Shown piece by piece: positions 53,077 through 61,096 of a DNA stretch of 64,000 bases (the stretch's first letter is position 1; every line of letters begins with the position of its first letter). A program made the translations under genes and the position numbers. This stretch comes from Hydrogenovibrio marinus. GTDB lineage: Bacteria; Pseudomonadota; Gammaproteobacteria; Thiomicrospirales; Thiomicrospiraceae. The stretch spans positions 1,178,001 through 1,242,000 of the forward strand of contig NZ_AP020335.1 in the NCBI RefSeq assembly GCF_013340845.1, read 5' to 3'. The notes beneath the pieces are model-generated. The model had not been told where the DNA came from. It did not search any database and saw nothing but the letters and a program-made list of their open reading frames with translations.

Positions 53077-54132
53077 TTAAAGTGTCGCCATATCTATTAC
53101 AAAGCGATATTTAACATCTCCTGCAACTGTTCGGTCATATGCGGTATTTACATCTTTCATGTCAATCAGTTCAATATCACATGTGATATTGTGTTTTCCG
53201 CAGAAGTCGAGCATCTCTTGAGTTTCAGGTAAGCCCCCAATAAGCGAACCTGCCATGTTACGGCGTTTAAAAATGAATGGCACGCCACTAACATTCGTAA
53301 GCGCTTCAACCGCACCTACGATGACCATTGTTGAATCAAGCTTCAGTAGATTCATATAAGGATCGGTATTGTGACCTACAGGAATTGTGTTTAGAAGAAA
53401 GTCAAAAGTGCCTGCGGCTGCTGACATTGCTTCAGCATCAGTAGAGAGTAGAACTTCATCAGCGCCTAGCTTTCTAGCATCTTTTCCCTTTTCGGGTGAG
53501 GTTGTAATCATGACAACATGAGCGCCCATAGCATGGGCAAACTTAACGCCCATGTGGCCAAGTCCACCTAGTCCTATCACACCGACTTTTTGCCCTGGCC
53601 CAACTTTCCAATGACGAAGAGGAGAGTAGGTCGTAATACCTGCACAAAGTAGAGGAGCCGAACCAGCTGCATCTAGGTTTTCTGGAATATTTAGAACGAA
53701 TCTCTGGTCGACGGTGATGGTATCTGAATAGCCGCCATAGGTAACATTGTGTTTGGTGCCGCCTATTTTGTCTTCACTGTTGTAGGTTCCCGTCCAGCCG
53801 TTTTCACAATATTGTTCTAATCCGTGATTACATGGCTCACAGTGGCGGCAACTGTCGACTAAGCACCCAATGCCGACAAGGTCACCTTTTTTAAATTTAC
53901 TTACATTATTGCCAACAGCAGTGACACGACCAACAATTTCATGTCCGGGTACAAACGGATAAATGGTTCCTCCCCACTCATTACGGGCAGAATGGATGTC
54001 TGAGTGACAAATTCCGCAATATTGAATATCTATTACAACGTCTTCAGCAAGAGGGGCTCTGCGCTCAAAGCTAAATGTTTCTAATTTATCTGTAGGACTA
54101 TGATTTGCATATCCATGTGCCGTAATAGTCAT
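53077..54132 (-). CDS. NAD(P)-dependent zinc alcohol dehydrogenase (cinnamyl-alcohol/YahK type)
   Basis: A 351-residue cytosolic medium-chain dehydrogenase/reductase. Catalytic zinc ligands C42, H64-E65 and C163 and all four structural-zinc cysteines C95, C98, C101, C109 are present; Rossmann motif GLGGLG at about 187-192. Family members usually reduce aldehydes with NADPH. AAGGGAG precedes the ATG, and the upstream cupin stop is two bases away, so the two are one transcript. Likely aldehyde detoxification; substrate not determinable from sequence. Confidence 0.92.
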   Translation of the reverse strand: MTITAHGYANHSPTDKLETFSFERRAPLAEDVVIDIQYCGICHSDIHSARNEWGGTIYPFVPGHEIVGRVTAVGNNVSKFKKGDLVGIGCLVDSCRHCEPCNHGLEQYCENGWTGTYNSEDKIGGTKHNVTYGGYSDTITVDQRFVLNIPENLDAAGSAPLLCAGITTYSPLRHWKVGPGQKVGVIGLGGLGHMGVKFAHAMGAHVVMITTSPEKGKDARKLGADEVLLSTDAEAMSAAAGTFDFLLNTIPVGHNTDPYMNLLKLDSTMVIVGAVEALTNVSGVPFIFKRRNMAGSLIGGLPETQEMLDFCGKHNITCDIELIDMKDVNTAYDRTVAGDVKYRFVIDMATL

Positions 54133-54134
54133 TT

Positions 54135-54662
54135 TTATACTCCCTTACCTAAATAATCTTGATCTGTAACATGTTCCATCCAATCTACGACTTTACCGTT
54201 GCTTTCTCCTGTAATAGCGACATGAGACATTGCTTGATCGGGAGCGGCGCCGTGCCAGTGCCTTACATTTGCTGGGAACCAAACAACATCACCAGGCTCT
54301 AATTTAAAGATCTCTTGACCTTCAATTTGAGCACGCCCTTCGCCAGAAAGAATCATAAGAGTTTGTCCTTTGGGGTGCGTGTGCCAAGTTGTTCTAGCAC
54401 TGGCTTCGAAATTTACAATAGCGCTACTGTAACTTCTATCGCCTTCAGGTTGAAACATGGAATCAATTGTGACATTACCCGTAAAGTAGTCGGCAGGGCC
54501 ATCAACAGCTTTATGCTCACTGTGTTTAACTAAAACCATCATGTTCTCCTTTTTAGAGTTATTAGCATAAGCAAGGTTTGAGGCATTAAATGACACTGCA
54601 GTAGCCAAAGAAAAGAACAGAAATTTTCGCCTACTAAAATGTGCCTTACTTATGTCTTTCAT
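54135..54662 (-). CDS. Tat-exported cupin protein
   Basis: A 175-residue protein with a twin-arginine signal (SRRKFLFF, arginines at 11-12 from ATG 54662; cleavage expected after the AYA segment) and one cupin barrel with the metal-binding motif TWHTHPKGQT, then PGDVVWFPANVRHWHG. I use ATG 54662, eight bases after GAGG, instead of the in-frame GTG 54671. The mature part resembles cupins seen beside carboxymuconolactone decarboxylase proteins. Expected to be periplasmic. Coupled to the ADH gene downstream. Confidence 0.85.
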   Translation of the reverse strand: MKDISKAHFSRRKFLFFSLATAVSFNASNLAYANNSKKENMMVLVKHSEHKAVDGPADYFTGNVTIDSMFQPEGDRSYSSAIVNFEASARTTWHTHPKGQTLMILSGEGRAQIEGQEIFKLEPGDVVWFPANVRHWHGAAPDQAMSHVAITGESNGKVVDWMEHVTDQDYLGKGV

Positions 54663-54777
54663 GTTGAACACCTCTTAGTCGAATGTAAGAGTGATTGCTA
54701 TGGCATTTTTTAAATAATGCTTCGCGCCACTCATTTTTATTGTGTCAGTAAAGTCGCTAGCAATGATTGCTAGACAC

Positions 54778-55947
54778 TTAAAATGTTGCAGGGTCTATTA
54801 CATAGCGGTAACGAGCTTTTTTATCCACCACGTCTTTCCATGCTTGGTTGATCTGATCAGCAGAGATAATTTGTATTTGTGGGTGAATATTGTTCTCTGC
54901 ACAGTAATCAACCACTTCTTGGGTTTCTTTCATGCCACCGATGAGTGAAACGTTGAAGTTGACTCGGCTAATTGAAAGCCCGATAGCACTTAGTGTTAAT
55001 TCAAATTTTTCAGGCATACCAACTTGAGTGTAGTAACCAAAAGGCTTTACAACAGACACATAGGATGCGACATCATATTGATAGGGGATGGTACAAATCA
55101 TGTAATCCAGCTTACCTCTATAGGGCGCTAGGTTGCCTATATCATCCACAACAACAGCTTCTTTTGCTCCAAACCCAAGGATATCGTCAACTTTATCGGG
55201 GGAAGTAGTGAATGCATATACTTCTGCACCCTTAGATACCGCGATTTTAATTGCCATGTGTCCGAGTCCTCCGATACCTGCAACACCGACTTTATCGCCT
55301 TTCTTTAGATCAAATTTCATGATTGGAGAATAGGTGGTGATACCCGCGCATAAGAGAGGAGCAGCTTCCTGAAAGCTAATGTTTTCTGGGATGTGAACGA
55401 CAAAGTGCTCATTCACAACAATATTGGTTGAGTAACCGCCTTGAGAAATACCTGTAGGCGAACTGGCTTCAGGGTAACCATAGGTAAAAGTTGTATCAGG
55501 ACAGTATTGCTCTTCACCTTGCTTAAAGCTTTCACATTCAGGGTTACCACTTACCATGCACCCAACGCCGGCTCTGTCACCAATCTTAAATTTAGTAACG
55601 TTTTTACCTACTGCTGTAACGACTCCGGCAATCTCGTGACCGGGAACCTGAGGGTATTGCTGTGGACCCCAGTGGCCTTTCATTTGATGGATGTCAGAGT
55701 GGCAGATGCTTGCATATTTGGTTTCAATCAAAACATCATTATCTCCTACTGGTCTTCTCTCAAATGACCATGGTTTTAGAACACCTGAAGTGTCTGTAGC
55801 GGCGTAGCCACGTGATTTAATATTTCCATTATGTAATTCTTTTGTAGAAGCCATAGCTGAAGTCCCCGATAACATTAAGGCTGCGCCAGATGCAGCTGTT
55901 GTCTGTATAAATTCTCTTCTGGTTAAACCGTTACATTTATCACACAT
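54778..55947 (-). CDS. Tat-signal-bearing zinc alcohol dehydrogenase with degenerate structural-zinc site
   Basis: A 389-residue paralogue of the ADH at 53.1 kb with an extra N-terminal segment: TRREFIQ twin-arginine motif (R10-R11), hydrophobic stretch and AMA cleavage site near residue 33. Catalytic ligands C82, H104-E105 and C200 are kept, but of the four structural-zinc cysteines only C138 and C149 remain; the others are N135 and F141. The Rossmann motif GIGGLG is intact. It appears to be exported folded, with cofactor, to the periplasm, unusual for an NAD(P)-type enzyme. AGGAAA precedes ATG. Divergent from the AraC gene. Confidence 0.88.
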   Translation of the reverse strand: MCDKCNGLTRREFIQTTAASGAALMLSGTSAMASTKELHNGNIKSRGYAATDTSGVLKPWSFERRPVGDNDVLIETKYASICHSDIHQMKGHWGPQQYPQVPGHEIAGVVTAVGKNVTKFKIGDRAGVGCMVSGNPECESFKQGEEQYCPDTTFTYGYPEASSPTGISQGGYSTNIVVNEHFVVHIPENISFQEAAPLLCAGITTYSPIMKFDLKKGDKVGVAGIGGLGHMAIKIAVSKGAEVYAFTTSPDKVDDILGFGAKEAVVVDDIGNLAPYRGKLDYMICTIPYQYDVASYVSVVKPFGYYTQVGMPEKFELTLSAIGLSISRVNFNVSLIGGMKETQEVVDYCAENNIHPQIQIISADQINQAWKDVVDKKARYRYVIDPATF

Positions 55948-56147: not shown

Positions 56148-57050
56148 GTGAGTACAGATCAATTGACTAGTAGTCGTCAGGAATTGATTCAATATATCAA
56201 TTCGTCCTTCAGCGGCGAAAGCTTTATCCAAACTTCAATTAAGCCTTTAAGCTTTTTTTTCCATGAAAATCCTACAGAAATGCTTTCTATTCTTTATGAA
56301 CCTTCACTATGTGTGATAGTTCAAGGAGAGAAAGAGGTTGGTGTTGATGACAAGTTGATTCGTTATTCTCCGAATCAATATTTACTCGCGTCGATTCATA
56401 CGCCCGCTCAGGTACGAATCACTGATGCTTCGCCGGAAAAACCCTATATGGGGTTTACGATTACCTTTTCGATGGAACAAATATTTGAAGTTCTAAAGGA
56501 CATTGAGACAGAAGAAATACAAGCTGTAGAAACACGGAGTGGACTGTATTTTGGAGATTTAAAGCCTCAATTACTTGATGCTGTTGTTAGGCTTGTTAGA
56601 ACAATGGATGCAGTAGAGGATCAGAAGGTATTGTCACCTCTGTTCATCAAAGAAATTTTGTACTTTGTGATGAAAGAAAAGGGAGGAGACTTTATTCGAC
56701 AATATATTAAAGATGACCATTCCACAAAAAGGACTGTTGAAGCAATATGTCTGATAAAAGAGCATTTTTCAGAGAGTCTCAATGTGAAAGAGCTTGCTGA
56801 AAAAGTAGGTATGAGTGAATCTTCGCTATATTCAACATTTAAAAAAATCACGTCATTAAGCCCACTACAATTTCAAAAAACACTACGTTTGCAAGAAGCC
56901 AGACAACTTTTGACAATTCAAAAAGTTCCTGTGAACGAAGCTGCATTTAAAGTAGGGTATGAGAGCCCGTCGCAGTTCAGTCGTGAATATTCTCGAATGT
57001 ATGGCAAATCACCTAAAGCTGATGTGAAAAATGAAAAAACAATGGTGTAG
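56148..57050 (+). CDS. AraC-family transcriptional regulator (AraC_N / YqhC type)
   Basis: A 300-residue regulator with an N-terminal AraC-type ligand domain (about 15-170; LCVIVQGEKEV, PYMGFTI) and C-terminal double helix-turn-helix (about 195-290; LNVKELAEKVGMSESSLYSTFKK and VNEAAFKVGYESPSQFSREYSRMYGKSP). It starts at GTG 56148 after AAAAGG. YqhC of this group activates an aldehyde reductase in E. coli, and here it is divergent from two alcohol dehydrogenases, so it probably controls them in answer to an aldehyde or alcohol. Confidence 0.9.
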   Translation: MSTDQLTSSRQELIQYINSSFSGESFIQTSIKPLSFFFHENPTEMLSILYEPSLCVIVQGEKEVGVDDKLIRYSPNQYLLASIHTPAQVRITDASPEKPYMGFTITFSMEQIFEVLKDIETEEIQAVETRSGLYFGDLKPQLLDAVVRLVRTMDAVEDQKVLSPLFIKEILYFVMKEKGGDFIRQYIKDDHSTKRTVEAICLIKEHFSESLNVKELAEKVGMSESSLYSTFKKITSLSPLQFQKTLRLQEARQLLTIQKVPVNEAAFKVGYESPSQFSREYSRMYGKSPKADVKNEKTMV

Positions 57051-57141: not shown

Positions 57142-57251
57142 CGTTCATTTTTGTTAATGTAATAGTGTTACTGAGCAGACACTATAATGTTTGAAATGCT
57201 TAGTTTAGTGATGTTGTGGTAAAGAGCGTTTTCTCAAAAGGAGAGAAGTTT

Positions 57252-58322
57252 GTGAATATTCGTTTCAGTGGTTTACTGAAGATCGTTGCGGTTGCACTTG
57301 TCGTTATACTGTCTTTTTTTGCTTGGAATTACTTTCATAACAATTCGAAATCTGATGGTGTGATGGGTAGCAACGGCCGTATTGAAGCAGTAGAAGTTGA
57401 TGTCTCTACCAAGATTGCGGGAAGGTTAGAAAAGGTTCTTGTAAAGGAAGGCGATTTTGTTAAAGCAGGTCAAATTGTTGCTTTAATGGATACAAAAACA
57501 CTGGAGGCCGAGCTTCTGCAAGCCAAAGCTCAATTTCGGCAGGCTAAAGACTCTGTTATAACAGCTAAGAATCAGCTAGTGCTGAGACAAAGTGAAAAAG
57601 CAACTGCAGTAGCTGTAGTATCTCAACGTAAGACAGAATTAAATTTAGCAAAAAAACGCACTGAGCGAGTGATTAGTCTGGTTAAATCGGGACACACTTC
57701 TGAGCAATCAGCTGATGACGCGCGCGCTGCTGTTGATAGTGCTGAAGCTGCTTTAAATGCAGCACATTCCCAGGTTGCCGCAAGTGAGGCAGCCATATCA
57801 GTTGCGGTATCTCAAATAGATAGTGCTGAATCTTCCGTGAAAGCAGCTCAAGCCGTAATCAAAAGGGTACAAATAGAAATTGATGATGCTTCTTTAAAAG
57901 CACCTGTAAGTGGAAGAATTCAATATATCGTAGCCCGTTCGGGTGAAGTTCTTGGAGCTGGCGGCAGAGTCCTAAATTTAGTTGATTTAACGGATGTCTA
58001 TATGACATTTTTCTTGCCAACACTTTATGCTGGTCAAGTCTCAATGGGAACTGAAGTAAGAATTGTCCTTGATGCCGCGCCTGATTATGTCATACCAGCG
58101 CACATTTCTTTTATCGCTAATGTCGCACAATTCACCCCAAAAACAGTCGAAACAGAAAGAGAACGTGAAAAATTGATGTTCCGTGTGAGGGCGAGGATTT
58201 CTCCTGCGTTATTGCAAAAGAATATCCAAAGAGTCAAAACAGGGTTGCCTGGCGAAGCCTACATAAAGATTTCACCTAACGTCCCTTGGCCTGATCGCCT
58301 CCAAAAAAATCTAGTTGAGTAG
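57252..58322 (+). CDS. yhiI: HlyD/YhiI-like membrane fusion protein of an ABC exporter
   Basis: A 356-residue periplasmic adaptor with one N-terminal membrane segment (about 9-25), a lipoyl half-motif ([26 protein letters not shown]), a long coiled-coil hairpin (about 80-205) rich in Ala and Ser, the second lipoyl half ([11 protein letters not shown]) and a beta-barrel. GTG 57252 is preceded by AAAAGGAG at eight bases, much better than GTG 57216. Followed after 14 bases by the RbbA-like gene. Confidence 0.85.
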
Positions 58323-58336
58323 GGGCTTTTAGTGCA

Positions 58337-61096
58337 ATGACCAAACATAGCGAGTTGGTTGTCAAACTTACGGAAGTGAGCTTGCAATATGGACAGACGT
58401 TAGCACTTAACAAGGTTTCTATTGAGGCTTATGCTGGCAAGGTTATGGGTTTGATTGGCCCGGATGGTGTTGGGAAGTCAAGCTTGCTATCACTCATTTC
58501 TGGTGCAAGGGTTATTCAGAGCGGTACAATTAATGTTCTAGGTGGTGATATGTCAGATAGCAAGCATCGCCATAGAGTATGCCCTGACATCGCTTACATG
58601 CCGCAAGGTTTAGGAAAAAATTTATACGAAACGCTTTCCGTTTTTGAAAACATAGATTTCTTTGGAAGCTTATTTGGTCACGCTAAAGGGGAGCGAGAAA
58701 GGCGTATTAACGTGCTTTTGACAGCGACAGGACTCCTTCCATTTAAAGACCGATTGGCCGGTAAACTGTCGGGAGGAATGAAGCAAAAACTTGGGCTATG
58801 TTGTGCACTTATTCATGACCCTGATCTGTTGATTTTAGATGAACCAACAACAGGGGTTGATCCACTATCCCGCCGCCAATTTTGGGAGCTAATTGATCAC
58901 ATTCGTGTACAGCGTCCAACGATGTGTGTTTTAGTCGCGACTGCTTATATGGAAGAAGCGGCAAGGTTTGACAGCTTAGTGGCAATGGATGATGGAGTGG
59001 TTTTAGCGACTGGCTCGCCAAGAGAACTATTGGATAAAACCAATAGTGAAACATTGGAAGAAGCGTTCATTCGGCTGTTACCTTCTTCCAAAACATTGGG
59101 TTATAAACCGATAGAAATACATCGCCGCAGCTTGGATGGTAATAACGATATTGCAATTAAGGCAGAAAATCTAACGATGCGCTTTGGTGACTTTGTTGCA
59201 GTGGATCGTGTTAGTTTTTCAATTCATCGCGGTGAAATATTTGGTTTTCTCGGTTCCAATGGTTGCGGGAAGACGACAACCATGAAAATGTTGACGGGCT
59301 TGTTATCTGCAAGTGAAGGTGAGGCTAAGCTGTTCGGCAAGATAGTCGATCCTGATGATATTGATACACGCCGTCGAGTGGGATACGTTACACAATCTTT
59401 CTCGTTGTACTCGGAGCTTAGCGTGAAGCAGAACCTTGAGCTTCATGCTCGGCTCTATGGCATTGCAGAAGCCTCGGTAGAAACACAAGTTAATGAGATG
59501 GTAAAAAAGTTCGGTTTGGAAGAACAGATGAATAGTTTGCCAAACTCGTTGCCATTGGGGGAGCGTCAGCGGCTTTCGTTGGCGTCAGCAATGATTCATG
59601 GTCCTGAAATGTTGATTTTGGATGAACCTACTTCTGGGGTTGATCCATTAGCGCGGGATGCGTTTTGGCGTATCTTAATTCATCTGGCGCAAAATGAAGG
59701 TGTGACCATCTTTATTTCCACGCACTTTATGAATGAAGCTGAACGATGTGATCGTATTTCGCTTATGCATGCCGGGAAAGTTTTGATTAGCGATACACCT
59801 GAGGCAATAACGCAAGGAAAGCAGTCAAAAACTCTAGAGGAAGCGTTCATACATCACCTTGAAGAGGCCGTAGGCGTTAAAGAAGCTATACCAGATGATA
59901 AGACTGGTGATTCATTTGCCCATAATCAAAGTGAAACGTCAGGTACGAGTTCTTTGTTTAATCGTTCATCATTTAGCTTGCGCCGATTATTTAGCTATAC
60001 ACGAAGAGAAACGCTGGAGTTAATTCGAGATCCCATTCGTATGTCTCTAGCAGCATTTGGCAGCATCATCCTAATGCTTGTACTAGGGTATGGTTTAAAT
60101 ATGGATGTTGAAAACCTGAAGTTTGCAGTGTGGGATCAAGATAAAAGTAATGCAAGCCATGATTATGTCTTGAATATTTCAGGGTCAAGGTATTTTATCG
60201 AAGAGCCTCCTCTCCATAGTTATGCTGAGCTAGATCAAAGGATGAAGGCCGGAGAAATTAGCCTAGCACTTGTTATTCCTAGTGGTTTTGCGAGAGATCT
60301 AGCCAGAGGAGATTCCGTAGAGATCGGTGCCTGGGTTGATGGAAGCATGCCGCAAAGGGCTGAGACGGTGCTTGGTTATGTACAAGGCATGCATGCATAT
60401 TGGATAGCTGAAAAATTACGAGAAGCCTATGGTGATAGCGCTGTTGCTTCTCAAGTGAATATAGAAACACGGTTTCACTATAACCCAGATATAGAAAGCT
60501 TACCTGCAATGGTACCTGCGGTGATTCCCATCTTATTAATGATGATTCCTGCCATTTTGAGCGCTTTATCCGTTGTACGCGAGAAGGAGTTGGGGTCGAT
60601 TATTAATCTCTATGTGACACCAGTCACAAGATTGGAGTTTCTATTAGGGAAGCAGCTGCCTTATATTGCATTATCAACTCTAAGTTTCATATTACTGGTG
60701 TTACTGGCTGTGTTTTTATTTCAAGTGCCGGTTTCAGGTAGCTTTTTGACATTGGCGGTTGCAGCGGTGCTTTATGTTACAGCATCGACAGCACTGGGAT
60801 TACTTATGTCTACTTTTGTCAAAAGCCAAGTGGCCGCGCTTTTTGGTACGGCAATAGTCACAATGCTGCCTGCAGTTCAATTTTCGGGATTAATTGATCC
60901 TGTTGCATCATTAGAAGGTGCTGGTCGTTTGATTGGAGAGGTTTATCCAACAACGCACTTTGTTACCATTTCTCGAGGAACTTTTTCTAAGGGGCTTGAA
61001 TTTGCAGATTTGCATATGGCCTTTATACCCTTAATCATGGTAATTCCTGTATTAATAGGAATTACAGCTGTTCTGTTAAAAAAGCAGGAGAGATGA
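58337..61096 (+). CDS. rbbA: RbbA-like ABC transporter: two ATPase domains fused to a permease
   Basis: A 919-residue protein, near the length of E. coli RbbA. Domain 1 has Walker [10 protein letters not shown] (41-49), signature LSGGMKQ and Walker [14 protein letters not shown]; domain 2 has GSNGCGKTT and [12 protein letters not shown], but its signature is degenerate ([10 protein letters not shown]). An ABC-2 permease part with six membrane segments occupies about 555-915, with a large periplasmic loop. With the flanking MFP and permease genes this is the yhiI-rbbA-yhhJ arrangement. The name RbbA reflects reported ribosome binding in E. coli; an export role suits the context better. Substrate unknown. 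Confidence 0.88.

Follow-up and report, generated by a model that had tools for sequence, protein, structure and literature searches.

The window analysed here, a stretch of 64,000 nucleotides from the genome of Hydrogenovibrio marinus (contig NZ_AP020335.1, positions 1,178,001 to 1,242,000), encodes a CAD-type zinc alcohol dehydrogenase of 389 amino acids, ADH1 (54778..55947, minus strand), which is predicted to be exported by the twin-arginine translocation (Tat) pathway. The export signal is a property of a whole clade of dehydrogenases and not of ADH1 alone, and within that clade changes of the structural-zinc site are confined to the one subclade that includes ADH1. The observation is broader than the initial annotation of the locus, in which the coordinates, translation and residue numbering of ADH1 were correct. 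With moderate confidence we favour the explanation that ADH1 is a Tat-exported dehydrogenase of the CAD/YahK type with bound NADP(H), which would interconvert carbonyls and alcohols in the periplasm as part of an AraC-regulated response and whose structural-zinc loop would have been rebuilt in its subclade.

The predicted Tat signal peptide covers residues 1-33 (MCDKCNGLTRREFIQ...TSAMA; 55849..55947, minus strand) and was assigned by its conservation in the clade, with the cleavage site judged by eye. According to the translation and the clade alignment, the twin arginines R10 and R11 (55915..55920, minus strand) lie in the sequence T9-R10-R11-E12-F13-I14, with a hydrophobic stretch and A31-M32-A33 after it. 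The initial annotation had read TRREFI, the hydrophobic stretch and AMA as a Tat signal; all three are present and the signal is kept across the clade. The Pfam model TAT_signal scored 17.2 bits on ADH1, under its gathering cut-off of 22.7 bits, so that the signal claim rests on conservation. A Shine-Dalgarno-like AGGA is located 9 nt upstream of the ADH1 ATG. The genome of H. marinus encodes TatC (225 bits), and a TatB-like frame beside tatC was recognised by eye. Together with the clade-conserved signal and the exported-looking operon partners described below, these proteins make the predicted export of ADH1 by Tat well supported in silico. Several of the signal peptides have a CxxC right at the N-terminus, ahead of the twin-arginine pair (MCDKC, MCNKC, MCDRC and MCEAC; window positions 55933-55947 and loci L045, L126 and L129).

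The distribution of the signal was assessed with a rule-based scan of our own devising for a twin-arginine-type motif. The alignment contained 173 homologues, 81 of them more than 60% identical to ADH1 and 92 others; matches that started after residue 62 or ended before residue 380 were left out, as were duplicate loci. The signal was flagged in 77 of the 81 clade members and in 3 of the 92 other relatives. Removal of near-copies (L094-L096, L098, L131, L135, L136 and L007) left 73 non-redundant clade rows with at least 62% identity, while the remaining relatives found were at most 49% identical to ADH1. Among these 73 rows the signal was flagged in 69, as RR in 65, KR in two and RK in two. 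The exported form, for which a search in other genomes had been proposed at the outset, was accordingly found in several phyla. The four unflagged rows were L068, in which KRREFI is present and was rejected by the rule, L118, whose reading frame is closed immediately upstream, and two rows from Methanolobus beginning at the domain itself. The Methanolobus copies without a Tat signal (L114 and L116) nevertheless have a gene nearby for a cupin-related protein whose start is of the lipoprotein type. As a cruder check, Pfam TAT_signal (E 0.1) matched 14 of the 64 rows of alignment A3, three of them signal-less; in a set of 20 signal-less rows it was not among the best 25 of 27 Pfam families matched. 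The three flagged rows among the 92 other relatives make up a second, distant group of Tat-bearing dehydrogenases on Rhizobiales/Xanthobacteraceae plasmids (L126, L127 and L129), with four structural cysteines and an MCxxCG start ahead of the twin arginines.

The 81 clade rows formed one side of a branch with a support of 100, and a careful tree of the 73 rows with five outgroup rows gave 100/100 for the clade branch. The distribution of the exported clade is patchy. Three orthologues with 77-78% identity were present among 55 genomes searched (source genome included), and 80 named loci, among at least 85 confirmed, were listed at 62-81% identity in species genomes. Among 398 sampled genomes of the phylum, a match at E 1e-80 was present in 77, the best beyond the source's own gene being 49% identical. 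Five of 369 genomes of the class passed E 1e-110 (own included), and one of these five matches was a signal-less relative, 46.8% identical and starting at residue 43. The record titles of the clade members, which we assigned to phyla from general knowledge, point to Gamma-, Beta- and Alphaproteobacteria, Campylobacterota, Nitrospirota, Bacteroidota, Verrucomicrobiota, Calditrichota, Acidobacteria and archaeal Methanolobus, with several MAGs among them. A scan of viral_contigs returned three loci, of which L123 is a member of the 73-row clade; the other two are L124, a relative without the signal, and L125, a short match.

The family and fold of ADH1 are ordinary. The Pfam domains ADH_N (97 bits) and ADH_zinc_N (41 bits) were above cut-off, the Gfo/Idh/MocA family was absent among its seven Pfam matches (E 0.1), and the score on the Ahr aldehyde reductase equivalog NF047908 was 257.5 bits, under the cut-off of 470. 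The predicted model, with a mean pLDDT of 88.3, matched CADs, several of them NADP-bound, and YahK with Z values of 45-48 at 1.7-2.2 Å. The catalytic zinc ligands C82 (55702..55704), H104 and E105 (GHE; 55633..55638) and C200 (55348..55350), all on the minus strand, were retained, as previously proposed, and this C-H-E-C set is complete in 173/173 aligned homologues. A putative NADP(H)-binding Rossmann segment was located by alignment and motif at residues 224-252 (GIGGLGH...FTTSPDK; 55192..55278, minus strand). The motif T-[TS]-[ST]..K after the second Rossmann strand, which in analogy to CAD enzymes we take to be the NADP motif, occurs in 73/73 non-redundant clade rows, in ADH1 as TTSPDK. 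Since the catalytic ligands and the NADP motif are both kept, ADH1 looks catalytically functional and a tightly held cofactor appears plausible. At position 79, three residues upstream of C82, cysteine has almost disappeared from the clade (2/73 rows versus 75/92 other relatives). Residues V329, N330 and N332 of ADH1 are present in 97-100% of the 73 exported-clade rows and represent a clade-specific change; at the same positions, signal-less relatives carry R/K, mostly S or other residues, and mostly A, respectively.

The former structural-zinc loop comprises residues 135-149 (55501..55545, minus strand) and has a mean pLDDT in the model of 93 for residues 131-140 and 90 for residues 141-150. 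In the alignment with its paralogue ADH2 and other relatives, the structural ligands 1 and 3 of ADH1 are replaced by N135 and F141, as first reported, and ligands 2 and 4 remain as C138 and C149. Four cysteines were found at the site in 51/73 clade rows and a changed site in 22/73, including one locus (L055) that was counted as changed though its loop has four cysteines at other spacing. Only 5 of 89 signal-less relatives, i.e. the 92 others minus three Tat-bearing Rhizobiales rows, had a changed site (Fisher p 3e-5, uncorrected for kinship). Among all 92 other relatives the changed rows were likewise five, four with two cysteines and one with three. Loop length was 20 in 89/89 signal-less relatives and altered in 8/73 clade rows.

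The careful tree places every one of the 22 changed rows in a single subclade of 28 rows (support 100/97), whose six remaining rows are intact. Elsewhere in the clade, all 45 rows keep four cysteines, and 42 of these carry a flagged signal. Since these 45 rows and six subclade members retain the complete site, export does not force the loss of cysteines, and a general coupling of cysteine loss and Tat signal was rejected. For the exported enzyme with half of its structural cysteines missing that had been suggested for ADH1, the loss itself is borne out, and it belongs to one subclade and not to export as such. The loss is not private to ADH1 either: its pattern, N/D-C-F/Y-C, is common to Guyparkeria, Marinobacter, Lysobacter, Competibacteraceae and others. 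The changed sites display 14 letter patterns, or about nine when grouped; beside that of ADH1 these include N-H-C-C, C-C-M-H, C-C-S-S, C-C-gap-Q, C-gap-C-S, gap-gap-C-C, C-G-C-C at shifted spacing (still four cysteines) and four rows without cysteine. The nearest neighbours of ADH1 in the tree are from Guyparkeria and Marinobacter, while the orthologues of its own genus and family (L005-L007) have all four cysteines and lie on another branch; this placement suggests horizontal transfer of ADH1.

Whether the cysteines were lost for a reason is less certain. Neutral drift in a tolerant lineage, unlinked to export or oxidation, remains a serious rival and a real possibility, if not the reading we prefer. 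It agrees with the restriction of the losses to one subclade, with the 45/45 intact rows elsewhere in the clade and with the changed sites in 5/89 signal-less relatives. Some ligand mutants of SpXDH were still folded and active with lower stability, and in other MDR enzymes the loss of structural zinc was either destabilising or tolerated (PMC9895041). The exchange of one structural ligand in YahK (C99S) cuts both ways, as the zinc content stayed near wild type and the activity was almost abolished (PMC11397123). The number of events speaks against drift: parsimony on the careful tree required four changes if regain is allowed, and without regain about eight losses were counted by hand within the 28 rows, a number that weakly supported forks could reduce. 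The loop contained four, two or no cysteines in 52, 17 and 4 of the 73 rows and never an odd number, a post hoc observation on about eight lineages that likewise counts against drift; four of the five changed signal-less relatives also have two.

Our preferred reading of a rebuilt loop would be compatible with a disulfide in the loops with two cysteines, because another MDR enzyme, the alcohol dehydrogenase of A. pernix, has a disulfide where structural zinc is absent (PMC9895041). By this analogy, a C138-C149 disulfide possibly holds the loop of ADH1. The host lends the disulfide no support, as neither DsbB nor VKOR was found in the genome of H. marinus. The only DsbA-family match in this genome (L239, G000:C1:48253-48714) carries CPHC and has a twin-arginine-like start, LRRDFL. 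In 35 genomes of our choosing, the change of the site did not follow the presence of DsbB or VKOR (16/21 changed versus 9/14 intact genomes in a hand tally; Fisher p 0.47).

On the minus strand ADH1 is followed by a cupin gene and by ADH2. The cupin (54135..54671) is of the (R)-mandelonitrile-lyase type (NF049940, 166 bits versus a cut-off of 140) and has a twin-arginine signal, SRRKFL...AYA; its likelier start is the ATG at 54662, with AGAGGTG ahead of it. ADH2 (53077..54132, minus strand) begins 2 nt past the cupin stop, and its four structural cysteines are intact (CxxCxxCx7C). It had been described as a neighbouring paralogue without a signal; the signal is indeed missing, and the two dehydrogenase genes are separated by the cupin gene. 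Divergently, at 56148..57050 on the plus strand, an AraC-type regulator is encoded, in which the AraC_N domain (PF06719) scored 137.7 bits. Beside it, at window positions 57216-61096, lie an HlyD-type adaptor and an RbbA-type ABC protein (NF033858, 1511 bits versus 1050). The promoter scan found two sites versus 7.3 expected and the terminator scan four versus 2.1 expected.

Neighbouring genes were collected within about 6.5 kb of the 73 loci, and the commoner families among them were identified by Pfam. Cupin relatives were the commonest neighbours, at 53/73 loci, and 41 of these 66 proteins, the one in the window included, were flagged as exported; cyclophilin-like proteins occurred near 26 loci, with a signal flagged in 21/29. 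The proportions were 2/18 for aldo/keto reductases, 0/33 for acetyltransferases, 0/15 for SDR proteins, 0/36 and 2/29 for two AraC groups and 0/10 for a small group that we take to be DUF2255-like, and these contrasts are rough because the crude export rule was applied only to proteins with more than 12 residues before the domain and, judged by eye, missed some real signals. At other loci many relatives of the cupin appear to be exported, whether by Sec, as lipoproteins or by Tat, and in some cases (L045 and L043) carboxymuconolactone decarboxylase domains are joined to the cupin in a fusion. Exported and signal-less dehydrogenase copies lie side by side at 11/73 loci. In genomes with the exported form, searched for pairs at 74 loci minus L073, L075, L091, L100, L120 and L122, the structural site was intact in 48 of 49 signal-less paralogues, a set that does not include paralogue L207 owing to the filter for alignment span and duplicates.

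A second, rather unlikely explanation accepts the signal as real and regards ADH1 as an ordinary NADPH-dependent aldehyde reductase, which would do most of its work in the cytoplasm ahead of a slow export, be retained as an unprocessed precursor or be made from a start at M32. This residue is encoded by a second, internal ATG with a weak GGGGA upstream. The absence of the signal from the Methanolobus homologues also fits, and the glucose-fructose oxidoreductase (GFOR) of Z. mobilis was active with or without its signal (PMC4628093). A mainly cytoplasmic role accords poorly with a twin-arginine-type motif in 69/73 rows across phyla, with the often exported-looking cupins and cyclophilin-like proteins nearby, and with a separate signal-less paralogue, ADH2, within the same operon.

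According to the preferred explanation, ADH1 would fold and bind NADP(H) in the cytoplasm and cross the membrane by Tat together with its cofactor. In the periplasm it would interconvert aldehydes or ketones and alcohols, and the bound cofactor would be renewed by a second substrate on the model of GFOR, a member of another protein family. ADH1 would probably work with the exported cupin in an AraC-regulated response to electrophiles or carbonyls. In its subclade a rebuilt loop would replace the structural zinc, possibly with the disulfide considered above. It counts against this explanation that the periplasm is not expected to contain free NADP(H). The Tat pathway transports folded proteins with cofactors (PMC6708511). 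We infer an envelope carbonyl or alcohol conversion, which in some genomes would be paired with a cytosolic enzyme. More doubtful is an extended version, in which a widespread clade of periplasmic zinc nicotinoproteins would be exported by Tat with bound NADP(H) and catalyse carbonyl-alcohol transhydrogenation outside the cytoplasm, and in which the oxidation-prone Zn(Cys)4 site of one branch would repeatedly have given way to a disulfide or to a loop without metal, through pairwise loss of cysteines.

Known enzymes share parts of this combination. YahK and the CAD enzymes are cytosolic, and so are the MDR enzymes without structural zinc, Pichia XDH and the A. pernix dehydrogenase. Pseudomonas putida formaldehyde dehydrogenase and the flax enzyme LuHNL, a relative of zinc alcohol dehydrogenases, are not known to be exported; GFOR is not known to contain zinc. 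E. coli YahK and the H. pylori CAD 3TWO resemble ADH1 in fold, catalytic zinc ligands and NADP motif (42-43% identity; Z 45.5 for YahK and 48.2 for 3TWO). They possess four structural cysteines, whereas ADH1 has a Tat signal and two of the four; the complete set is usual and not universal, being present in 84/89 signal-less relatives and missing from ADH1. Pichia XDH has, like ADH1, lost structural ligands, the positions in PsXDH reading S-S-Y-C, and one form of the A. pernix dehydrogenase (1H2B) has a disulfide in place of the zinc (PMC9895041); both belong to other MDR subfamilies. The GFOR of Z. mobilis is, like ADH1, a nicotinamide enzyme with a Tat signal; it is periplasmic and differs in belonging to the Gfo/Idh/MocA family (PMC4628093) and in that its cofactor retention is known. 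Its export is tied to NADP binding according to a title cited in PMC6708511. Pseudomonas putida formaldehyde dehydrogenase and LuHNL belong with ADH1 to the zinc MDR family and hold NAD tightly, by an insertion loop or an adenine sandwich (PMC8892092).

LuHNL also provides the model for a third, improbable explanation, in which ADH1 would catalyse no net redox reaction, NAD(P) would be structural and the zinc site would handle cyanohydrins or other carbonyl adducts. LuHNL keeps the zinc alcohol dehydrogenase domains, holds NAD+ tightly and has no known alcohol dehydrogenase activity, and cupin hydroxynitrile lyases are named beside it (PMC8892092); the cupin partner of ADH1 scores above the cut-off of the NCBIfam (R)-mandelonitrile lyase model. 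However, the family name of the cupin reflects the annotation of its members and not a proven function here, the closest structures to ADH1 are CADs and YahK, several of them NADP-bound, and the NADP motif occurs in 73/73 rows. LuHNL moreover relies on Lys162 and Glu323 (PMC8892092). Equally improbable is a reading in which bound NADP(H) would exchange electrons with a partner in the envelope or with a carrier of the respiratory chain instead of a second substrate. Exported-looking partners encoded nearby and the dedicated electron carriers proposed for nicotinoprotein dehydrogenases (PMC3023750) speak for it; against it, no redox carrier or cytochrome was among the Pfam-identified neighbour families.

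Published work touches on the subject at several points. A short-chain dehydrogenase is among predicted Tat substrates in PMC3305326, and PMC6110883 names ADH/GroES among the zinc proteins of P. syringae, with no statement of Tat export of such a protein in the portion available. PMC2764856 places its table of Tat substrates in a supplement. The accessible text of PMC12502724 contained nothing relevant to a Tat-exported CAD-type dehydrogenase, and that of PMC10033563 mentioned neither signal peptide nor periplasm. In the open-licence PMC literature, as represented by titles and the starts of abstracts, no Tat-exported CAD-type alcohol dehydrogenase was found; no report of the exported clade or of the subclade with altered zinc site was met in the same searches.

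With its export signal, ADH1 departs from an enzyme type that is normally intracellular and prompts one to ask how an enzyme in need of a cofactor would work outside the cytoplasm. An NADP-dependent dehydrogenase would be expected in a compartment that recycles NADP(H), and to our knowledge extracytoplasmic chemistry with a carried cofactor is known only from GFOR-type enzymes. A conserved exported clade would imply such chemistry for the relatives of ADH1. The manner in which some MDR enzymes lost their structural zinc, and the reason for it, are considered an open question (PMC9895041). This question becomes directly testable here, because one clade with 62-81% identity to ADH1 holds loops with four, two and no cysteines and thus offers a natural series for the loss of structural zinc in MDR enzymes.
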